NCBI GenBank assembly: GCA_016763075.1
Contig: JAESUM010000057.1
Coordinates: forward strand, 1-45,550
DNA from: Pseudomonadales bacterium
GTDB lineage: Bacteria > Pseudomonadota > Gammaproteobacteria > Pseudomonadales > JAHRWD01
Direction: 5' to 3'
DNA: 45,550 bases
Positions 3,582-45,550 of this stretch are shown piece by piece. Numbering within the stretch: position 1 is the stretch's first letter; each line of letters opens with the position of its first letter. The translations under genes and the position numbers were made by a program. The notes beneath the pieces were generated by a model. That model did not search any database. It saw only the letters and a list, made by a program, of their open reading frames with translations, and was not told the DNA's origin.

Positions 3582-4280
3582 CTACTCTAAAGCGTTTTGG
3601 GTTTGAGCAAGAGTAGTATGACGGACATCCTTGCCTTTGACGTAATAAATTATATATTCGCATATATTGGTCGCGTGGTCACCGATTCTCTCCATTGCAC
3701 GAACTGCCCACATTGTATTGAGAGCACGACGAATAGCCCGCGGGTCTTCCATCATAAATGTAATGAGTTGGCGTAATATGGCTTCGTATTCTTCATCTAC
3801 CTGCGTATCTTCTTGAAGCACTTTAAAGGCGGCGTCAGGATCCATTCTCGCATAAGCATCGAGTGCATCATGTAACATCGAGCGAACATGCGTACCCAAG
3901 TGCCGAACTTCTGGGTATCTGTTATTTGATTGCTCAAGCCGAGTGTTTTCCATTCCTAAGCGAGCAATTTTTTCCGCCTCATCGCCAATGCGCTCCAAAT
4001 CAGTAATGGTTTTTATAGTCCCCGTTACGAGGCGCAAATCGCTTGCTGTTGGTTGACGACGAGCAATCACCTGAGTACACAGTTCATCAATTTCAATTTC
4101 CATTTTATTGACTAAAATCTCTGTCTCTAAAACCGTCTCGGCAAGCGTATCGGTACCGTGCGCAAGCACTTCGCAGGCATCCCTTAATTGCGTCTCAACT
4201 AACCCACCCATTGCCAGCACACGAGTTTGCACCGTTTCTAGGTCTGTATTGAACTGTTCAGAAATGTGAGTATGGTCCAT
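3582..4280 (-). CDS. phoU: Phosphate signalling protein PhoU
   Basis: The protein has 232 residues made of two tandem PhoU three-helix bundles. The repeated metal-binding-type motifs are seen at DLERIGDEAEKIARL (about residues 93-107) and AMERIGDHATNICEYI (about 197-212). PhoU connects the Pst transporter to the PhoR-PhoB two-component system and represses the Pho regulon when phosphate is plentiful. It lies directly downstream of pstB, as in the E. coli order. The 86-base gap before it holds a run of nine G (C9 on the coding strand). The start is ATG, with GGAG about 11 bases upstream. Confidence 0.96.
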   Translation of the reverse strand: MDHTHISEQFNTDLETVQTRVLAMGGLVETQLRDACEVLAHGTDTLAETVLETEILVNKMEIEIDELCTQVIARRQPTASDLRLVTGTIKTITDLERIGDEAEKIARLGMENTRLEQSNNRYPEVRHLGTHVRSMLHDALDAYARMDPDAAFKVLQEDTQVDEEYEAILRQLITFMMEDPRAIRRALNTMWAVRAMERIGDHATNICEYIIYYVKGKDVRHTTLAQTQNALE

Positions 4281-4366: not shown

Positions 4367-5227
4367 TTAGCCGTAACGGCCAGTAATATAGTCTTCTGTT
4401 TGTTTCTTTTTGGGGTTAGTAAACACTCGATTAGTAGAATCAAACTCAACCAAATCACCCATATACATAAACGCGGTGTAATCCGAAACCCGGGCTGCCT
4501 GCTGCATGTTATGAGTAACAATTAAAATCGTATAATCGGATTTTAATTCATATATCAACTCTTCGATCTTTAGAGTTGATATCGGGTCAAGTGCTGATGC
4601 GGGTTCATCTAGCAATAATACTTCAGGTTTAATGGCTATGGCTCGCGCAATCACTAAGCGTTGCTGCTGACCACCGGATAAACCCATGGCATTATCATCA
4701 AGCCGATCCTTCACTTCGTCCCAAATAGCGGCGCTTTTAAGAGCCCATTCGACCCGCTCATCCAGTACATGCCTTTTTTTTATACCCTGTAATCTTAGTC
4801 CATAAGCGACATTTTCGTAGACTGATTTGGGGAAAGGGTTTGGTTTCTGGAAAACCATTCCGACTTGACGCCTAAGTTCAGCAACATCGACGGTTGACTC
4901 AAATATATCCTGCCCTGAAAGACGAATAGAGCCATCCATTCGAACGCTATCAACCAAGTCATTCATTCGATTAAAACAGCGCAACAAGGTGGATTTCCCA
5001 CAGCCGCTGGGGCCAATAAAAGCGGTGACCTTTTTTTCTGGCACATCCATGCTTACGCCATGTAATGCCTGCTTGTCGCTGTAATACAAATTGAGGTCTC
5101 GAACCTCAATTTTGATTGTTTCATTTGCAAGCATAGGCCCAGACACTCCTGCGTTTTCGAGCTTCACAGAAATATTTGCTGGTTTTGCAGCTACAGATGA
5201 GCGTTCTTCAACCGTTTTACCATTCAT
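4367..5227 (-). CDS. pstB: Phosphate ABC transporter ATP-binding protein PstB
   Basis: This is the ATPase subunit of the high-affinity phosphate importer, on the cytoplasmic face. Walker [10 protein letters not shown] is at about residues 72-80, followed by the Q-loop in [10 protein letters not shown]. The signature is LSGGQQQR, Walker B plus D-loop [13 protein letters not shown], and the switch His lies in VTHNMQQ. The core starting at [12 protein letters not shown] is preceded by about 38 residues rich in small and charged residues, longer than E. coli PstB. The true start could therefore be the internal ATG at residue 33; neither start has a strong ribosome site. It is 67 bases downstream of pstA and followed by phoU. 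Confidence 0.97.
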
Positions 5228-5294: not shown

Positions 5295-6992
5295 TCAATT
5301 TTCCATTGACCGGTAGCGTTCTCGCAGTTTATTGCGCATTAAAATCACGGCAAGATTAAGAAAAATAATCACCAGCACCAACAAAAAAGAGGTTGCGTAC
5401 ACCAGCGGCCGAGCCACTTCTACGTTAGGGCTTTGAAAGCCCACATCGTAAATATGAAACCCCAAATGCATAAATTTACGCTCTAGATGCACGAAGGGGA
5501 AGTTTGCGTCTATCGGTAAATCCGGTGCTAATTTTACAACGCCCACCAACATTAAGGGTGCTACTTCGCCAGCGGCACGTGCAATCGCCAATATCACACC
5601 GGTCATAATGGAAGGGCTTGCCATAGGCAAAATAACGTTGCGAAGGGTTTCGAATCGTGTTGCACCCAGCGCTAAGCTTCCTTCGCGAATAGACCGAGGT
5701 ATGCGCGTTAAACCCTCTTCTGTAGACACAATAACAACCGGAACCGTCATGATGGCCAAGGTTAAAGCTGCCCACATAATGCCTGGTGTGCCTACCGTCG
5801 GCGCAGGTTTAGCCGCAGTAAAAAATAAATCGTCAATGTTTCCGCCCAAAAAATACACGAAAAACCCCAAACCAAATACGCCATAAACAATGGAAGGAAC
5901 ACCTGCTAAGTTATTGACTGCAATTCGAATAATTCTAATCACAGGCCCCTGTTTTGCATACTCACGTAAATACACCGCGGCGATCACACCAAATGGCGTG
6001 ACTAAAACTGTCATCAATAACACCATCATGACGGTGCCAAAAATAGCTGGAAAAATACCCCCTTCGGTGTTGGCCTCCCGGGGGTCGTCCATAAAGAAGT
6101 GATAAAGGTTAATAAAATACTGAATCAACTTTTCGCCAGCATTCATAACGTTTGGCTTAATGGCCCCAACAATAACCGCAAAGGGTAGCTCAACAATCTG
6201 TGAGTGCCCTTCGTTAATGATTTCAAATTTCGCCTTGTCGCGCTTTATCTGCTGATTGAGCACCTCTAATTTGCGCTGAATAACTTTATATATTTCTTGT
6301 TGGTGCCGTTCTTTGGCAGCTATTTCTCTAAGGTTTTCGGCGGTCTCAGTTCCATCTAGTTCCAAAGTTCGGCGCTCAAGCCGCAGTTTTTCCAGAACGT
6401 AGTTAACCCGCCCTATCTCAGATTTTTCTAATTGACGAATGAGGTCCCGTAATTCAAGGGTTCTATCAAGACGGTGATGAAGCTCGGACCAAAGGTCAGT
6501 GTGTGACGCCATATCAACGCCGTTTTCAGAAATTGACTTTAACTCGCCAAACAACGTTCCCCACTCCATTCGCTCCACTGCGACCACTGACGAGGGCTTA
6601 CCAAGTTTTTGGATTTCAAATTTCGATACCCATTTGAAATCCGCACCGTTTTGGTCACGATTCCCAACTTTAATCATCCAGCGCTCAACTTCACGCAGCT
6701 CCTTAGGAAGCGTTTGACCGGTTGATTCTTCATATCTCAGTTTGGATATCACATCGGTATCAATTAATTCCCCAACGATTGTCGAAAGCTTGCCGTCAAT
6801 CGTTTTATATTCGATAGACAACACATCTTTAGGCCAAAAGTGACCGCCACCGCGTGCGGCAATAAGCCCCAACAGACCAAAAACCATAATCAAACTAATC
6901 GAAACCGCGCCAGCATTGATCCAGATCATTGGGTTACCACTTTTCCACCAATGGGCAAAAGCAGATTGCTGGTTGTTTGTCGTGAGACTCAT
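5295..6992 (-). CDS. pstA: Phosphate ABC transporter permease PstA (large form)
   Basis: The protein is 565 residues, against about 296 in E. coli. A transmembrane helix at about residues 25-47 is followed by a periplasmic region to about 300 that includes a strongly charged coiled coil (about 165-255, rich in Leu/Glu/Arg/Lys). The permease core with its transmembrane helices occupies about 310-560. The EAA loop that contacts PstB is EGSLALGATRFETLRNVILP. This extended form is known in Pseudomonas-type Pst systems. The ATG abuts the pstC stop exactly (TAAATG), indicating coupled translation. No pstS (phosphate-binding protein) lies in this cluster. Confidence 0.93.
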   Translation of the reverse strand: MSLTTNNQQSAFAHWWKSGNPMIWINAGAVSISLIMVFGLLGLIAARGGGHFWPKDVLSIEYKTIDGKLSTIVGELIDTDVISKLRYEESTGQTLPKELREVERWMIKVGNRDQNGADFKWVSKFEIQKLGKPSSVVAVERMEWGTLFGELKSISENGVDMASHTDLWSELHHRLDRTLELRDLIRQLEKSEIGRVNYVLEKLRLERRTLELDGTETAENLREIAAKERHQQEIYKVIQRKLEVLNQQIKRDKAKFEIINEGHSQIVELPFAVIVGAIKPNVMNAGEKLIQYFINLYHFFMDDPREANTEGGIFPAIFGTVMMVLLMTVLVTPFGVIAAVYLREYAKQGPVIRIIRIAVNNLAGVPSIVYGVFGLGFFVYFLGGNIDDLFFTAAKPAPTVGTPGIMWAALTLAIMTVPVVIVSTEEGLTRIPRSIREGSLALGATRFETLRNVILPMASPSIMTGVILAIARAAGEVAPLMLVGVVKLAPDLPIDANFPFVHLERKFMHLGFHIYDVGFQSPNVEVARPLVYATSFLLVLVIIFLNLAVILMRNKLRERYRSMEN

Positions 6993-9236
6993 TTACAAGT
7001 TTCCGTATTTTTTTCGAAGGTTTTGACGAACAACTTCTGCAATGGTGTTAAAGAAAAAGGTCACTGCAAACAGTACCAACGCAGCAAGGAACAGCACTCG
7101 ATAATGGCTACTGTCTACTTCTGTTTCGGGCAGCTCAACCGCAATATTTGCCGAAAGAGTACGCATCCCCTGAAACACACTGAAATCCATCAACGGCGTG
7201 TTCCCGGTTGCCATAAGCACGATCATGGTTTCACCCACGGCGCGGCCCAAGCCAATCATCACTGCAGAAAAAATACCGGGACTAGCGGTAAGAATTACCA
7301 CTCTTGTTAGGGTTTGCCATGGCGTGGCCCCTAACGCTAAAGAGCCTTGGGTCAAGTGTTTTGGCACACTAAATATGGCATCTTCAGTAATTGAAAATAT
7401 GGTTGGAATCACCGCCAGCCCCATAGCTAAACCCACCACAAGCGAGTTTCGTTGGTCGTAATTGATTCCAAGTGTGGTTCGCATCCAGCCTTTAAGGTCG
7501 CCACCAAAAATGGCCTGCTCAACCAAGGGAGAGACAGCAAATGCCACCCAAACAAACACAATAATGACTGGGATTAACACCGCAGCTTGCCACCCATCAG
7601 GGATTCGGCGGGTAAGCGAATGCGGTAAAATGTGCCAAAGCCAAGCAAAAAATATCAGTTCAAAAGGCATAATAAGAAACACGCTAACGACCGCCAGCAG
7701 ATTGTCTTCAACCAAAGGCGCAAGCCACAGACCTGCCAAAAAACCCAAAATCACAGTGGGTAAAGCTTCCATGATTTCAATGCTGGGTTTAACCCAGGCC
7801 CGCATGGCCGGAGCCATAAAGTACGCGGTAAAAATGGCCCCAAATATTGCCAGCGGTGTGGCGAACATCATGGCGTAAAACGCTGCTTTTAAGGTACCAA
7901 ACGATAGTGGTATTAAACTGAATTTTGGCTCGAAGTCGTTATCTGCCGAGGAAGATTGCCAAATATATTCTGGGCTTTCATAACCTTCGTACCAAACTTC
8001 GTTCCATAACGAAGACCAAGAAATCTCGGGGTGATGATTATCGATTTCATAAACCCTAATATTACCATTGGTTTCAAGTAACAACCGGTCAGAACGCGGT
8101 GAATAGGTGCTTAGAGCGTGCAGCTCGTTGTTATAACGCGCGTCAAAACCTAACGAAACCGAAAGTAAGTTTTGCTCTGCAGTGGTATGAAAAACCGAAA
8201 GCGTCCCTTGCTCACTAATCCCAATAAAACCTTTTCTTCGGTCTTCAGGCAGAATGACTTGAACGCTGGAATCTAACTCAAAACTTCGATACCGTGCCAA
8301 GCTGTACTGATTTTGCTTATCACGTGTTATTGAATATTGGTAAATATTGCCGAATTGATCGCCTATTAAGATTGAACTACCACCGAGCAATGGCTGCATA
8401 ACTACCGCTTCAGCGCCGCCATTTAATAGCGCGATATTTGCCACTTGTACCGGGTCTTCTGCATCGTTCAAGTCATATAAGGCGACCTGGCCAGACCGAT
8501 TCGCCAAATAAAGCCAGCGTGCTTGCCCATCTACCATTTGGTAATCAATATCAAATGGTGCTTCGAATTGCGATACTTGGTCGGGGTCAGCGAGTTCATC
8601 GCCTTCTTCGGCTTCAAAAAACGCCACAGATACGGTTCGGTTGTTGCGGTTTGATACCACAGCAACGACTGCATCTTCAGTGATCACCAAGTCTCGGTGG
8701 TCGCTTTGCTGGTTGTGTTCTATTGTGATGGGCTCTTCGCCGTAAGGAAATGAAAAGGTCGGCGTTAAAACCCGGCGCTCGTCATCAAAAGAAACTCGGT
8801 AGCCAATCTCTAAAATGATCATCGAGTCATCATCGAGTTTGACATTAAGAAAGCGCCCATCAACATCCGCTTGTGCGATTGAATCGACGGTTACTTGGGG
8901 TGGCAAATCAAGGTGATAGGTATAGGTAGGCGTTCCAGACGTCAGCTCAAAAAAGATAAACGTTCCGTTTGGAGTAGCCCGAACAGCCAGTTGTTTACTT
9001 TCTTCGATAGCAAGATAAACGCTGACGCCATGATGAATGGCGGGTGTGGAGTATTGCGCTTGTTGCGCCATACTGGCTGATTTGAAGATAGGCGCAACGA
9101 CAGCCAGTAAGTAAAAAAACAGCAGTACAATGATTAGGATGACCCAAATCCCACCGGCAGCAATGACGCCTGCAGCGAGACGATCTAGCAGGTTTCTGCG
9201 GCGCTGCTGAGCACTGGCTTCTACTGAATTTATCAT
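6993..9236 (-). CDS. pstC: Phosphate ABC transporter permease PstC (large form)
   Basis: The protein has 747 residues. A first membrane helix (about 22-46) is followed by a long periplasmic insertion (about 60-440) of repeated beta-strand blocks such as GQVALYDLND, GSSILIGDQFGNIYQYSI and GFIGISEQGTLSVFH. These resemble beta-propeller blades. The C-terminal permease domain (about 450-740) ends with a standard EAA loop, QGSLALGATPWQTLTRVVIL. The family imports phosphate. The insertion's role is unproven and might support binding-protein docking or sensing. It is the first gene of the block, and the 318-base upstream region holds PhoB-like half-sites. The next gene, pstA, starts immediately at its stop. 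Confidence 0.9.
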   Translation of the reverse strand: MINSVEASAQQRRRNLLDRLAAGVIAAGGIWVILIIVLLFFYLLAVVAPIFKSASMAQQAQYSTPAIHHGVSVYLAIEESKQLAVRATPNGTFIFFELTSGTPTYTYHLDLPPQVTVDSIAQADVDGRFLNVKLDDDSMIILEIGYRVSFDDERRVLTPTFSFPYGEEPITIEHNQQSDHRDLVITEDAVVAVVSNRNNRTVSVAFFEAEEGDELADPDQVSQFEAPFDIDYQMVDGQARWLYLANRSGQVALYDLNDAEDPVQVANIALLNGGAEAVVMQPLLGGSSILIGDQFGNIYQYSITRDKQNQYSLARYRSFELDSSVQVILPEDRRKGFIGISEQGTLSVFHTTAEQNLLSVSLGFDARYNNELHALSTYSPRSDRLLLETNGNIRVYEIDNHHPEISWSSLWNEVWYEGYESPEYIWQSSSADNDFEPKFSLIPLSFGTLKAAFYAMMFATPLAIFGAIFTAYFMAPAMRAWVKPSIEIMEALPTVILGFLAGLWLAPLVEDNLLAVVSVFLIMPFELIFFAWLWHILPHSLTRRIPDGWQAAVLIPVIIVFVWVAFAVSPLVEQAIFGGDLKGWMRTTLGINYDQRNSLVVGLAMGLAVIPTIFSITEDAIFSVPKHLTQGSLALGATPWQTLTRVVILTASPGIFSAVMIGLGRAVGETMIVLMATGNTPLMDFSVFQGMRTLSANIAVELPETEVDSSHYRVLFLAALVLFAVTFFFNTIAEVVRQNLRKKYGNL

Positions 9237-9259
9237 GCGATGCAGTCTAATCTGGGTTT

Positions 9260-9307
9260 GTTACAGTTTGGTTACACCTAACCGTACAAATTACACGCGT
9301 GGTTACA
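9260..9307 (-). promoter_or_regulatory. Candidate Pho box array upstream of pstC
   Basis: Read on the minus strand, the site GTGTAACCAAACTGTAAC (9277-9260) has two TGTAAC half-sites 11 bases apart. That is the PhoB direct-repeat spacing, and the second half (CTGTAAC) matches the consensus well. Three more TGTA-type half-sites lie just upstream, to 9307. The nearest box ends only 23 bases before the pstC ATG, so the transcript from it would be nearly leaderless. The operative box may be an upstream one. Confidence 0.55.
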
Positions 9308-9330
9308 TACCGTTCAAACAAATATAGACT

Positions 9331-9440
9331 TCTCTTGCCTTCTCTTGCCTTCTCTTGCCTTCCGTGGCATTGGCATTGGCAATCAATACTTGACGATGGT
9401 CGTCCTGACTTTCCATGACTGTTCATGACTGTTCATGACA
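9331..9440. repeat. Cluster of short tandem repeats (10-, 6- and 10-base units)
   Basis: Three different arrays lie side by side. TCTCTTGCCT is repeated three times exactly (9331-9360). TGGCAT is repeated about two and a half times (9366-9380). A 10-base unit of the type GTTCATGACT occurs four times with drift (9401-9440). On the minus strand the last array reads as CAGTCAT-like units every 10 bases, resembling PhoB half-sites (CTGTCAT) but one base short of the usual 11-base period. Confidence 0.85.
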
Positions 9441-9554
9441 TTCTAAGAAACAGACGCCCGACAAAAATATAGCCGCCGGTCTATTTGTCGTCAAAGAAAG
9501 CACCGGGAATTTTATGTTGCGTACTGCTCCAATGCCAACCCAGGGTACTTAGAT

Positions 9555-9974
9555 TCAAAATACCAAAAGCATCTTTTGGTGCATGATGCCCGCTTCTTCA
9601 AATTCTGGCCCATGGGCAACAAACCCCGCCCGTTGATAAAAACCAATAGCGTGGGATTGGGCATGTAAGTAAACCTGATCAAAATGCAACCTGGCTTCGT
9701 TAACCACCACCTGCAACAGATCAAAGCCAACCCCTTTGCTTCTGTGTGCCGCAAGCACTGCCATTCGGCCTATTTGGCCATTGGGTGTAAGCCGTGCGGT
9801 AGCAATAGTTTTTTGCTCTGGCTCATACACCAGCCAGTGCCGGCTTACTTCGTCCAAAGCATCCCATTCTTCATCGATAGGTACGCCCTGCTCATGCACA
9901 AACACTTCAACCCGGATAGTGGCTAATAGCGCCCTGCTGTCTTGCCACGTTACCTGCTCAGTTCGAAGTTTCAT
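9555..9974 (-). CDS. GNAT-family N-acetyltransferase
   Basis: The protein has about 139 residues. The N-terminal IRVEVFVHEQGVP motif (about 20-32) is typical of the YjcF/ElaA-like branch of GNAT proteins. The acetyl-CoA site lies around QIGRMAVLAAHRSKGVGFDLL, where the usual R/Q-x-x-G-x-G/A appears as R-S-K-G-V-G. The closing YLHAQSHAIGFYQRAGFVAHGPEFEEAGIMH is also typical. The acceptor substrate cannot be told from sequence. The ATG at 9974 is preferred over an in-frame TTG at 9980. Either start lies inside the end of roxA, so the two genes overlap by about 17 bases and are probably translationally coupled. Confidence 0.88.
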   Translation of the reverse strand: MKLRTEQVTWQDSRALLATIRVEVFVHEQGVPIDEEWDALDEVSRHWLVYEPEQKTIATARLTPNGQIGRMAVLAAHRSKGVGFDLLQVVVNEARLHFDQVYLHAQSHAIGFYQRAGFVAHGPEFEEAGIMHQKMLLVF

Positions 9975-11139
9975 CGGCAAAATAGATGGACCCTTGGTTA
10001 TAAAGCTCGATGAGCACGTTGGTCTGCGTTGCTGAGATCTGATCTGGCGGCACCGAAAAGGTACTTATTAAACGTTCACCGCAAAGCCACTGGGCAAAAT
10101 CCAAGCTAACATCGAAGCAGTCGCCATCTACAAACAAGGTGGCTTCTTCGAGAGCTACAAGCTCTGGCGTCGTACGTATATAGCTAAATTTACTATGGGT
10201 ACTACGTAAGATACCGCCGGCTTGGTCAAACTTAGTTTGCCACTGCGTAAAGGTATCCATGGGCTTTTCTGGCGCGTCACGTAACTGGGTTTGAGTCATG
10301 GTCGCGTAACCACCAAACCAGCGTGCAAATTGCGTGGGCGACTGCTGAAACTGCTTGAGCAGCAAGGCTTGAATATCTTTCAGGACGCAAGCGTCAATTT
10401 CGCCTGAATGACTTTGCAGCTTTAAGCCAGGGTCTTCATAGCGGTTGGACTCGCTCAAGCCGTCTATCCGGCTGTCGCTATAGCAGCTCAGCATATCGGC
10501 CACTGAAGGCGCACGAAACCCAATTGAAAAGGTCATGCAGTCGTCCTCTGCCACGCCGTGGTGGGCAATATGTGGTGGGATATACAACATATCCCCAGGC
10601 TCTAACACCCAGTCTTCCTGAGCGGTAAACTGCTCCATAATACGTAGGTCTAAGCCGTCAATGTAGTTGTCTTGAGTGACGTTTAAATCACTGATTTGCC
10701 AACGACGGTGCCCTCGCCCTCGCAACAAAAAGACATCGTAATTATCCCAATGCGGACCAACGGACCCTCCTTGCGGTGCATAACTCACCATTAAGTCATC
10801 CGCGCGCCAATCCGGTATAAAACGAAACTGATCCGTGATGGATGCCAGCTCCGGTAGGTGCTTTTCGATATCTGTAACCAGCAGTGTCCAGTGGGTTTTA
10901 GGTAAGGTTGAAAAAACTTCATCATTCAGCGGCCCGTACACAACTTGCCACGGGTGTTCGAAACCTTTTTCTACCACCAAACGACTTTGAACCTCTTCTT
11001 CGCAGGCAAGCCCTGCCAATTCGTCCGGTGTGATGGGTGATACAAACCCAGGTAAGGCTCCGCGGATCAATAACGGCTTTTTCTGCCAATATTGCTCAAG
11101 AAACTGCTGAGGGGGCATCGCGCCTAATACTGATTTCAT
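9958..11139 (-). CDS. roxA: Ribosomal protein uL16 3-hydroxylase (RoxA/YcfD family)
   Basis: This 393-residue JmjC/cupin 2-oxoglutarate- and Fe(II)-dependent oxygenase belongs to the YcfD family, which hydroxylates an arginine of ribosomal protein L16. The N-terminal FLEQYWQKKPLLIRGAL is a family hallmark. The iron triad is visible as H130 and D132 in GPHWDNYDVFLL, with the distal His in PPHIAHHGV (about 190-194). The C-terminal part should be the dimerisation and winged-helix region. The start at ATG 11139 could instead be the ATG seven codons in, which has AGG just upstream. The gene sits between a NYN-domain gene and an acetyltransferase in a compact minus-strand group. Confidence 0.92.
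   Translation of the reverse strand: MKSVLGAMPPQQFLEQYWQKKPLLIRGALPGFVSPITPDELAGLACEEEVQSRLVVEKGFEHPWQVVYGPLNDEVFSTLPKTHWTLLVTDIEKHLPELASITDQFRFIPDWRADDLMVSYAPQGGSVGPHWDNYDVFLLRGRGHRRWQISDLNVTQDNYIDGLDLRIMEQFTAQEDWVLEPGDMLYIPPHIAHHGVAEDDCMTFSIGFRAPSVADMLSCYSDSRIDGLSESNRYEDPGLKLQSHSGEIDACVLKDIQALLLKQFQQSPTQFARWFGGYATMTQTQLRDAPEKPMDTFTQWQTKFDQAGGILRSTHSKFSYIRTTPELVALEEATLFVDGDCFDVSLDFAQWLCGERLISTFSVPPDQISATQTNVLIELYNQGSIYFADETSN

Positions 11140-43762: not shown

Positions 43763-45550
<1,788 letters not shown>

Follow-up and report, generated by a model that had tools for sequence, protein, structure and literature searches.

Does a conspicuous cluster of short tandem repeats next to a regulated operon take part in the regulation of that operon? 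The question is raised by three different repeat families that lie side by side upstream of the pst operon in the window, by which we mean the whole 45,550-nt stretch of DNA analyzed here. An earlier note on this DNA proposed that the repeats were either a slippage hotspot or a helically phased multi-site for a regulator. We consider it highly probable that they are slippage-born repeats in an unconstrained spacer that carry no function, and that pst expression is driven by PhoB at a separate box. Slippage origin, lack of function, and PhoB action are each the most likely reading when judged from the sequence.

The pst operon and its upstream spacer

The genes and the hairpin that frame this locus are listed below with the evidence for each.

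6993 to 9236, minus strand: pstC-like permease of 747 amino acids, first gene of the operon (ORF; Pfam BPD_transp_1, at its cut-off; congener protein 78% identical)
5295 to 6992, minus strand: pstA-like permease (ORF; Pfam BPD_transp_1)
4367 to 5227, minus strand: pstB-like ATPase (ORF; Pfam ABC_tran)
3582 to 4280, minus strand: phoU-like protein (ORF)
9555 to 9980, minus strand: GNAT acetyltransferase gene, upstream of pst (Pfam)
9458 to 9479, minus strand: weak terminator-like hairpin 3′ of the acetyltransferase gene (consensus scan)

Pfam itself gives only ABC permease or ATPase domains for the transporter genes. The names pstC, pstA, and pstB are presumed from operon context, and we likewise take the phoU-like gene to be such from its protein sequence and position. 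A gene for a JmjC-type protein also lies upstream of pst on the same strand. The spacer between the acetyltransferase gene and pstC is 318 bp long and holds all three arrays. A consensus scan of positions 9200 to 9600 found two terminator-like sites, compared with 0.2 (SD 0.5) in shuffled sequences, and an Rfam scan of the window gave no matches at gathering scores. Elsewhere in the genome, at C49:59573-60788 (L004, L007), two more permease genes match the PstC permease domain with 35% and 28% identity; this pair is possibly a second pst-type operon.

Three short tandem arrays

The arrays have no assigned strand.

9329 to 9362: array 1, 10-base unit TTCTCTTGCC, three exact copies and a partial one (3.4 copies), 100% match, TRF score 68
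9365 to 9381: array 2, 6-base unit TGGCAT, 2.8 copies (two full units and TGGCA), TRF score 34
9406 to 9439: array 3, 10-base unit TGTTCATGAC, 3.4 copies, 91% match, degrading leftwards, TRF score 54

Direct reading and TRF agree with the earlier note that three distinct short arrays lie upstream of the pst operon (9329 to 9439), and the exact triple 10-mer that it described is indeed present, together with a partial copy. The interval that it marked, 9331 to 9440, lies 95 to 204 bp upstream of the pstC start codon (9236). Counted by eye, array 3 is made up of two exact copies of TGTTCATGAC, a copy TTTCCATGAC that agrees at 8 of 10 positions, and a weaker fourth unit to the left that agrees at 7 of 10. 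Such grading is the usual look of stepwise duplication followed by decay.

When the sequence from 9237 to 9554 was shuffled 5000 times with dinucleotide composition preserved, the best TRF score reached at least 34 in 75 shuffles, at least 50 in two, and at least 68 in none. Neither 10-mer array is explained by chance, and array 2, taken alone, is marginal; the same division holds when the arrays are judged as slippage-type VNTRs, that is, as head-to-tail, near-identical units beyond chance. To have three arrays in 110 bp is unusual locally, and this counts against a plain slippage reading. Among 382,863 other bases of the same genome (20 stretches), no triple of non-overlapping arrays occurs within 120 bp, and pairs occur five times.

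A recurrence search covered the two-copy forms of both 10-base units in two genomes, that of the window and that of one congener. The two-copy pattern of array 1, with up to three mismatches allowed, has no other site in either genome, and the two-copy pattern of array 3 also has no other site in either. Units that lack a second site in two genomes are unlike a regulon motif.

A predicted PhoB box in front of pstC

Two predicted promoter elements lie between the arrays and pstC.

9255 to 9277, minus strand: predicted PhoB box, TGTAACCAAAC-TGTAACAAACC, an 11-bp direct repeat in place of a −35 element (matrix; congener conservation)
9244 to 9249, minus strand: predicted −10 element TAGACT, which is TACACT in the congener (from sequence)

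The PhoB box is described as two 11-bp direct repeats, each with a CTGTCAT-like core (PMC2648988), and at Escherichia coli promoters the box is described as overlapping and replacing the −35 element (PMC3616915). The site at 9255 to 9277 fits the description of a PhoB box in its 11-bp register, in its position before a −10 element, and in lying upstream of pst, whereas the arrays at 9329 to 9439 do not. The site is an 11-bp direct repeat with TGTNA half-sites, and the hexamer of its second half-site lies 10 nt from TAGACT, matching a spacing of about 10 bp before the −10 element, itself a prediction. The predicted box sits 51 bases closer to pstC than the nearest array.

A PhoB-box matrix was built from 18 distinct sites in 21 loci of relatives, from which the window and its congener (L009) were excluded on purpose. 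The top-scoring site of the window is the box, at 9256 to 9277, with 16.6 bits against 7.0 for the runner-up anywhere in the window; scores of the training sites range from 18.6 to 34.6, slightly above that of the window's box. The pattern TGTNA-N6-TGTNA is present in 23 of 57 upstream regions (56 pstC relatives and the window), compared with 0.61 on average when mononucleotides were shuffled. Sixty relatives were available, and four of them (L056, L059, L066, and L067) were omitted from this count because their match stops short of the protein start. When the box pattern is written out at length from this site, it has a single match in the genome, namely 9255 to 9277 itself. A looser pattern has four matches in this genome and four in the congener, and its backward control has one in each. 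The genome also carries a PhoB gene (TIGR02154, 319.2 bits; cut-off 296.2), followed by a 504-amino-acid ORF that we take, from its sequence, to encode a putative PhoR-type histidine kinase. Just upstream of the box are two more TGTAA half-sites (9302 and 9290, minus strand), 12 bp apart; by eye, these are not present in the congener alignment.

The matrix also bears on array 3, whose units on the minus strand are GTCATGAACA and which the earlier note likened, as CAGTCAT-like elements, to PhoB half-sites spaced at 10 bp. The 10-bp register is real, CAGTCAT is present twice, and one unit has TGTCAT (9435, minus strand), which is the top single half-site hexamer within 9240 to 9450 and scores 9.94, compared with 9.25 for the box's own TGTAAC. 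The remaining units are not good half-sites, and the register is not the 11 bp of a PhoB box. The best full-site score in 9385 to 9450 is −24.5 against +16.6 at the box, on a matrix that was made from 11-bp sites and so penalizes a 10-bp register by construction; negative as it is, this score ranks 1897 among 91,058 positions. In 9325 to 9390 the best matrix score is −31.3.

Most likely, phosphorylated PhoB acting at 9255 to 9277 starts pst transcription with the −10 element at 9244 to 9249. The likely phosphate switch is a conserved PhoB box that lies outside the interval marked in the earlier note and was missed there.

Conservation of the promoter and turnover of the spacer

Conservation was examined in one congener (L009), whose PstC is 78% identical and which is too distant to show copy-number change; a search at the level of the family turned up no further genome. 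The congener retains the box, as TGTAACTAAACTGTAATAAAT, together with the −10 region and the distance to the ATG, and its spacer holds no tandem array that scores at least 30. It also has a 659-amino-acid ORF, running in the opposite direction between the GNAT gene and pstC, that is not in the window. With box and −10 element kept, arrays absent, and an extra ORF in place, the picture is one of a conserved promoter and a spacer that turns over. The earlier note had named a lack of conservation in close relatives as a refutation of its reading, and the absence of the arrays from this one congener counts against the helically phased multi-site. By eye, the additional ORF (L009 1276-3255) looks like an EAL/GGDEF-type signaling protein.

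When the 318-bp spacer was used as a DNA query against 293 genomes of the order (E ≤ 1), no credible second copy appeared among the matches listed. At least 200 genomes match, and besides the spacer's own copy the matches listed are short pieces, the best with an E value of 0.005, many of which pile up on simple sequence around array 2. These short order-wide matches may be read as chance or simple sequence.

Short arrays elsewhere in the genome

For a census of arrays, TRF output was filtered for perfect arrays with at least 2.8 copies of units of 5 to 15 bases. This genome has 12 such arrays in 382,863 bases (20 stretches), nine of which score at least 50. The counts are four, with two scoring at least 50, in an order control of 367,908 bases (one stretch from each of 20 genomes); four, with three scoring at least 50, in 361,372 bases of the congener (20 stretches); and one, scoring below 50, in 500,584 bases from the pst regions of relatives (59 loci, L010-L068). 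The excess over the order control (12 versus 4) is modest, and it comes from a non-random sample of contigs with response-regulator matches, some contig ends included; eight of the 12 arrays remain when those at contig ends are set aside.

No two of these arrays have an identical unit, as judged by eye, and their unit lengths are 5, 6, 8, 9, and 10 bases. A genome that holds many unrelated short arrays fits repeated slippage rather than a dedicated control element. When the window is added to the 20 stretches, nine of 17 perfect arrays lie outside crude ORFs and eight lie inside, while ORFs cover 89% of the bases. Thus, the arrays lean towards spacers and are not confined there.

Arrays are also found where contigs stop. 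The right end of the window (45531 to 45550) is itself GATTGG in 3.3 copies (TRF), and this end and four other array-bearing contig ends suggested that arrays might break contigs. The idea was tested on both ends of 40 further contigs, and 9 of these 80 ends lie in, or at most 30 bp from, an array that scores at least 40. When the 15 ends that had prompted the idea are included, the count is 14 of 95, compared with 17 of 3000 interior pseudo-ends. Among contig starts of the congener, one of 13 is at an array. Four pairs of contig ends in this genome have a common unit up to rotation (C5/C9, C10/C26, C29/C87, and C45/C63), as expected if arrays too long for reads to span break contigs. Long arrays probably do break this assembly.

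Origin and role of the arrays

According to the reading that we favor, replication slippage or local tandem duplication would have given rise to three arrays of the micro- or minisatellite type. Their host site would be a poorly constrained spacer that runs from the acetyltransferase gene to the pst promoter, and the phosphate switching would be done by the PhoB box and −10 element, nearer pstC and outside the arrays.

Short tandem repeats of the slippage type, or VNTR loci, are a general class in bacterial genomes. The pst arrays are like them in having short, near-perfect, head-to-tail units that are unrelated from locus to locus and that decay in a graded manner. VNTR loci vary in copy number between strains, whereas the pst arrays are known here from one genome and are short (2.8 to 3.4 copies). 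A further likeness, an abundance of short direct repeats in the genome of a gammaproteobacterium, is to the TAACTGA heptamer repeats of Beggiatoaceae (PMC4679880). In that system a single unit, TAACTGA, makes up 169 sets, most of which immediately precede start codons (PMC4679880). In the present sample, by contrast, every perfect array is built on a different unit, and each of the two 10-base pst units is confined to a single place.

Alternatively, pst might have a second transcript that is independent of PhoB (promoter candidate TTGACG-17-TATATT, 9494 to 9466, minus strand), with the arrays in its 5′ leader, where their copy number would tune it. In the consensus scan of 9200 to 9600, two sites resemble sigma-70 promoters, each of them upstream of the arrays on the minus strand, compared with 0.6 (SD 0.8) in shuffles. 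However, consensus matches are weak evidence for an upstream promoter, and the candidate is overlapped by the weak terminator-like hairpin and is not kept in the congener. Furthermore, the minus-strand fold of 9320 to 9520 is unremarkable (z −1.19; 21 of 200 shuffles equally or more stable), and so no structured RNA is claimed. We regard such a transcript as distinctly unlikely.

Helically phased sites for some other regulator would be consistent with the unusual clustering of the arrays and with the 10-base period of two of them, which the earlier note had matched to a helical turn. That match weighs little, because the period is common to only two of the three arrays and because unit lengths of 5 to 10 bases in perfect arrays elsewhere make 10 bases nothing special. 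The two units of 10 bases are unrelated to each other, the units differ among all three arrays so that there is no common motif, and neither 10-base unit recurs in its own genome or in the congener. Sites of this kind are very improbable. An equally low probability attaches to the idea that this lineage makes arrays at a raised rate and that the newborn cluster varies among cells, shifting the upstream spacing and basal phosphate uptake in the manner of a contingency-type locus. Least probable of all is that array 3 serves PhoB, or a regulator like it, as a platform of several sites, since the existing PhoB gene and the one good half-site are set against the 10-bp spacing, the negative full-site score, the absence of the array upstream of the orthologous operon in the one congener (L009), and the lack of a second copy of its unit in either genome.

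Between the two possibilities offered in the earlier note, slippage is the better-supported half and the likeliest, and the helically phased multi-site of the PhoB type finds no support.

A predicted leaderless pstC mRNA

The predicted −10 element of the window, TAGACT, ends 7 nt before the pstC ATG, a spacing that places the predicted transcription start at the A of the ATG or about 1 nt before it. This layout was compared in 37 regions, namely those of the window and 36 of the 56 relatives; the other 20, most of them Rheinheimera, lack a strict box. To choose the −10 element, ten start positions were scored with a weight table of our own making and the highest was kept, and the first in-frame start codon that follows the box was used, which makes the leader lengths predictions.

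A box is present in 23 of the 37 regions, and in 11 of these 23 the predicted start falls 0 to 1 nt from the start codon (window, L009, L012, L013, L016, L017, L023, L026, L029, L031, and L048), although some of these loci are closely related to each other and the 11 are not independent cases. At L030 the ATG is about 2 nt from the predicted start, as read from the printed sequence, the script having chosen a TTG. At the remaining 11 box-bearing loci the predicted leader is 7 to 192 nt long; ten of these loci presumably belong to Alteromonadales-type bacteria and one to Hahella. It is possible that a PhoB-dependent pstC mRNA is leaderless in several gammaproteobacterial groups. A literature search of titles and abstract openings found no description of leaderless pstC in Gammaproteobacteria among the matches listed.

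Implications

A striking repeat cluster may stand beside a regulated operon without being the element that regulates it. If their copy number did vary, the arrays upstream of pst would be a strain marker and possibly a tuning device.
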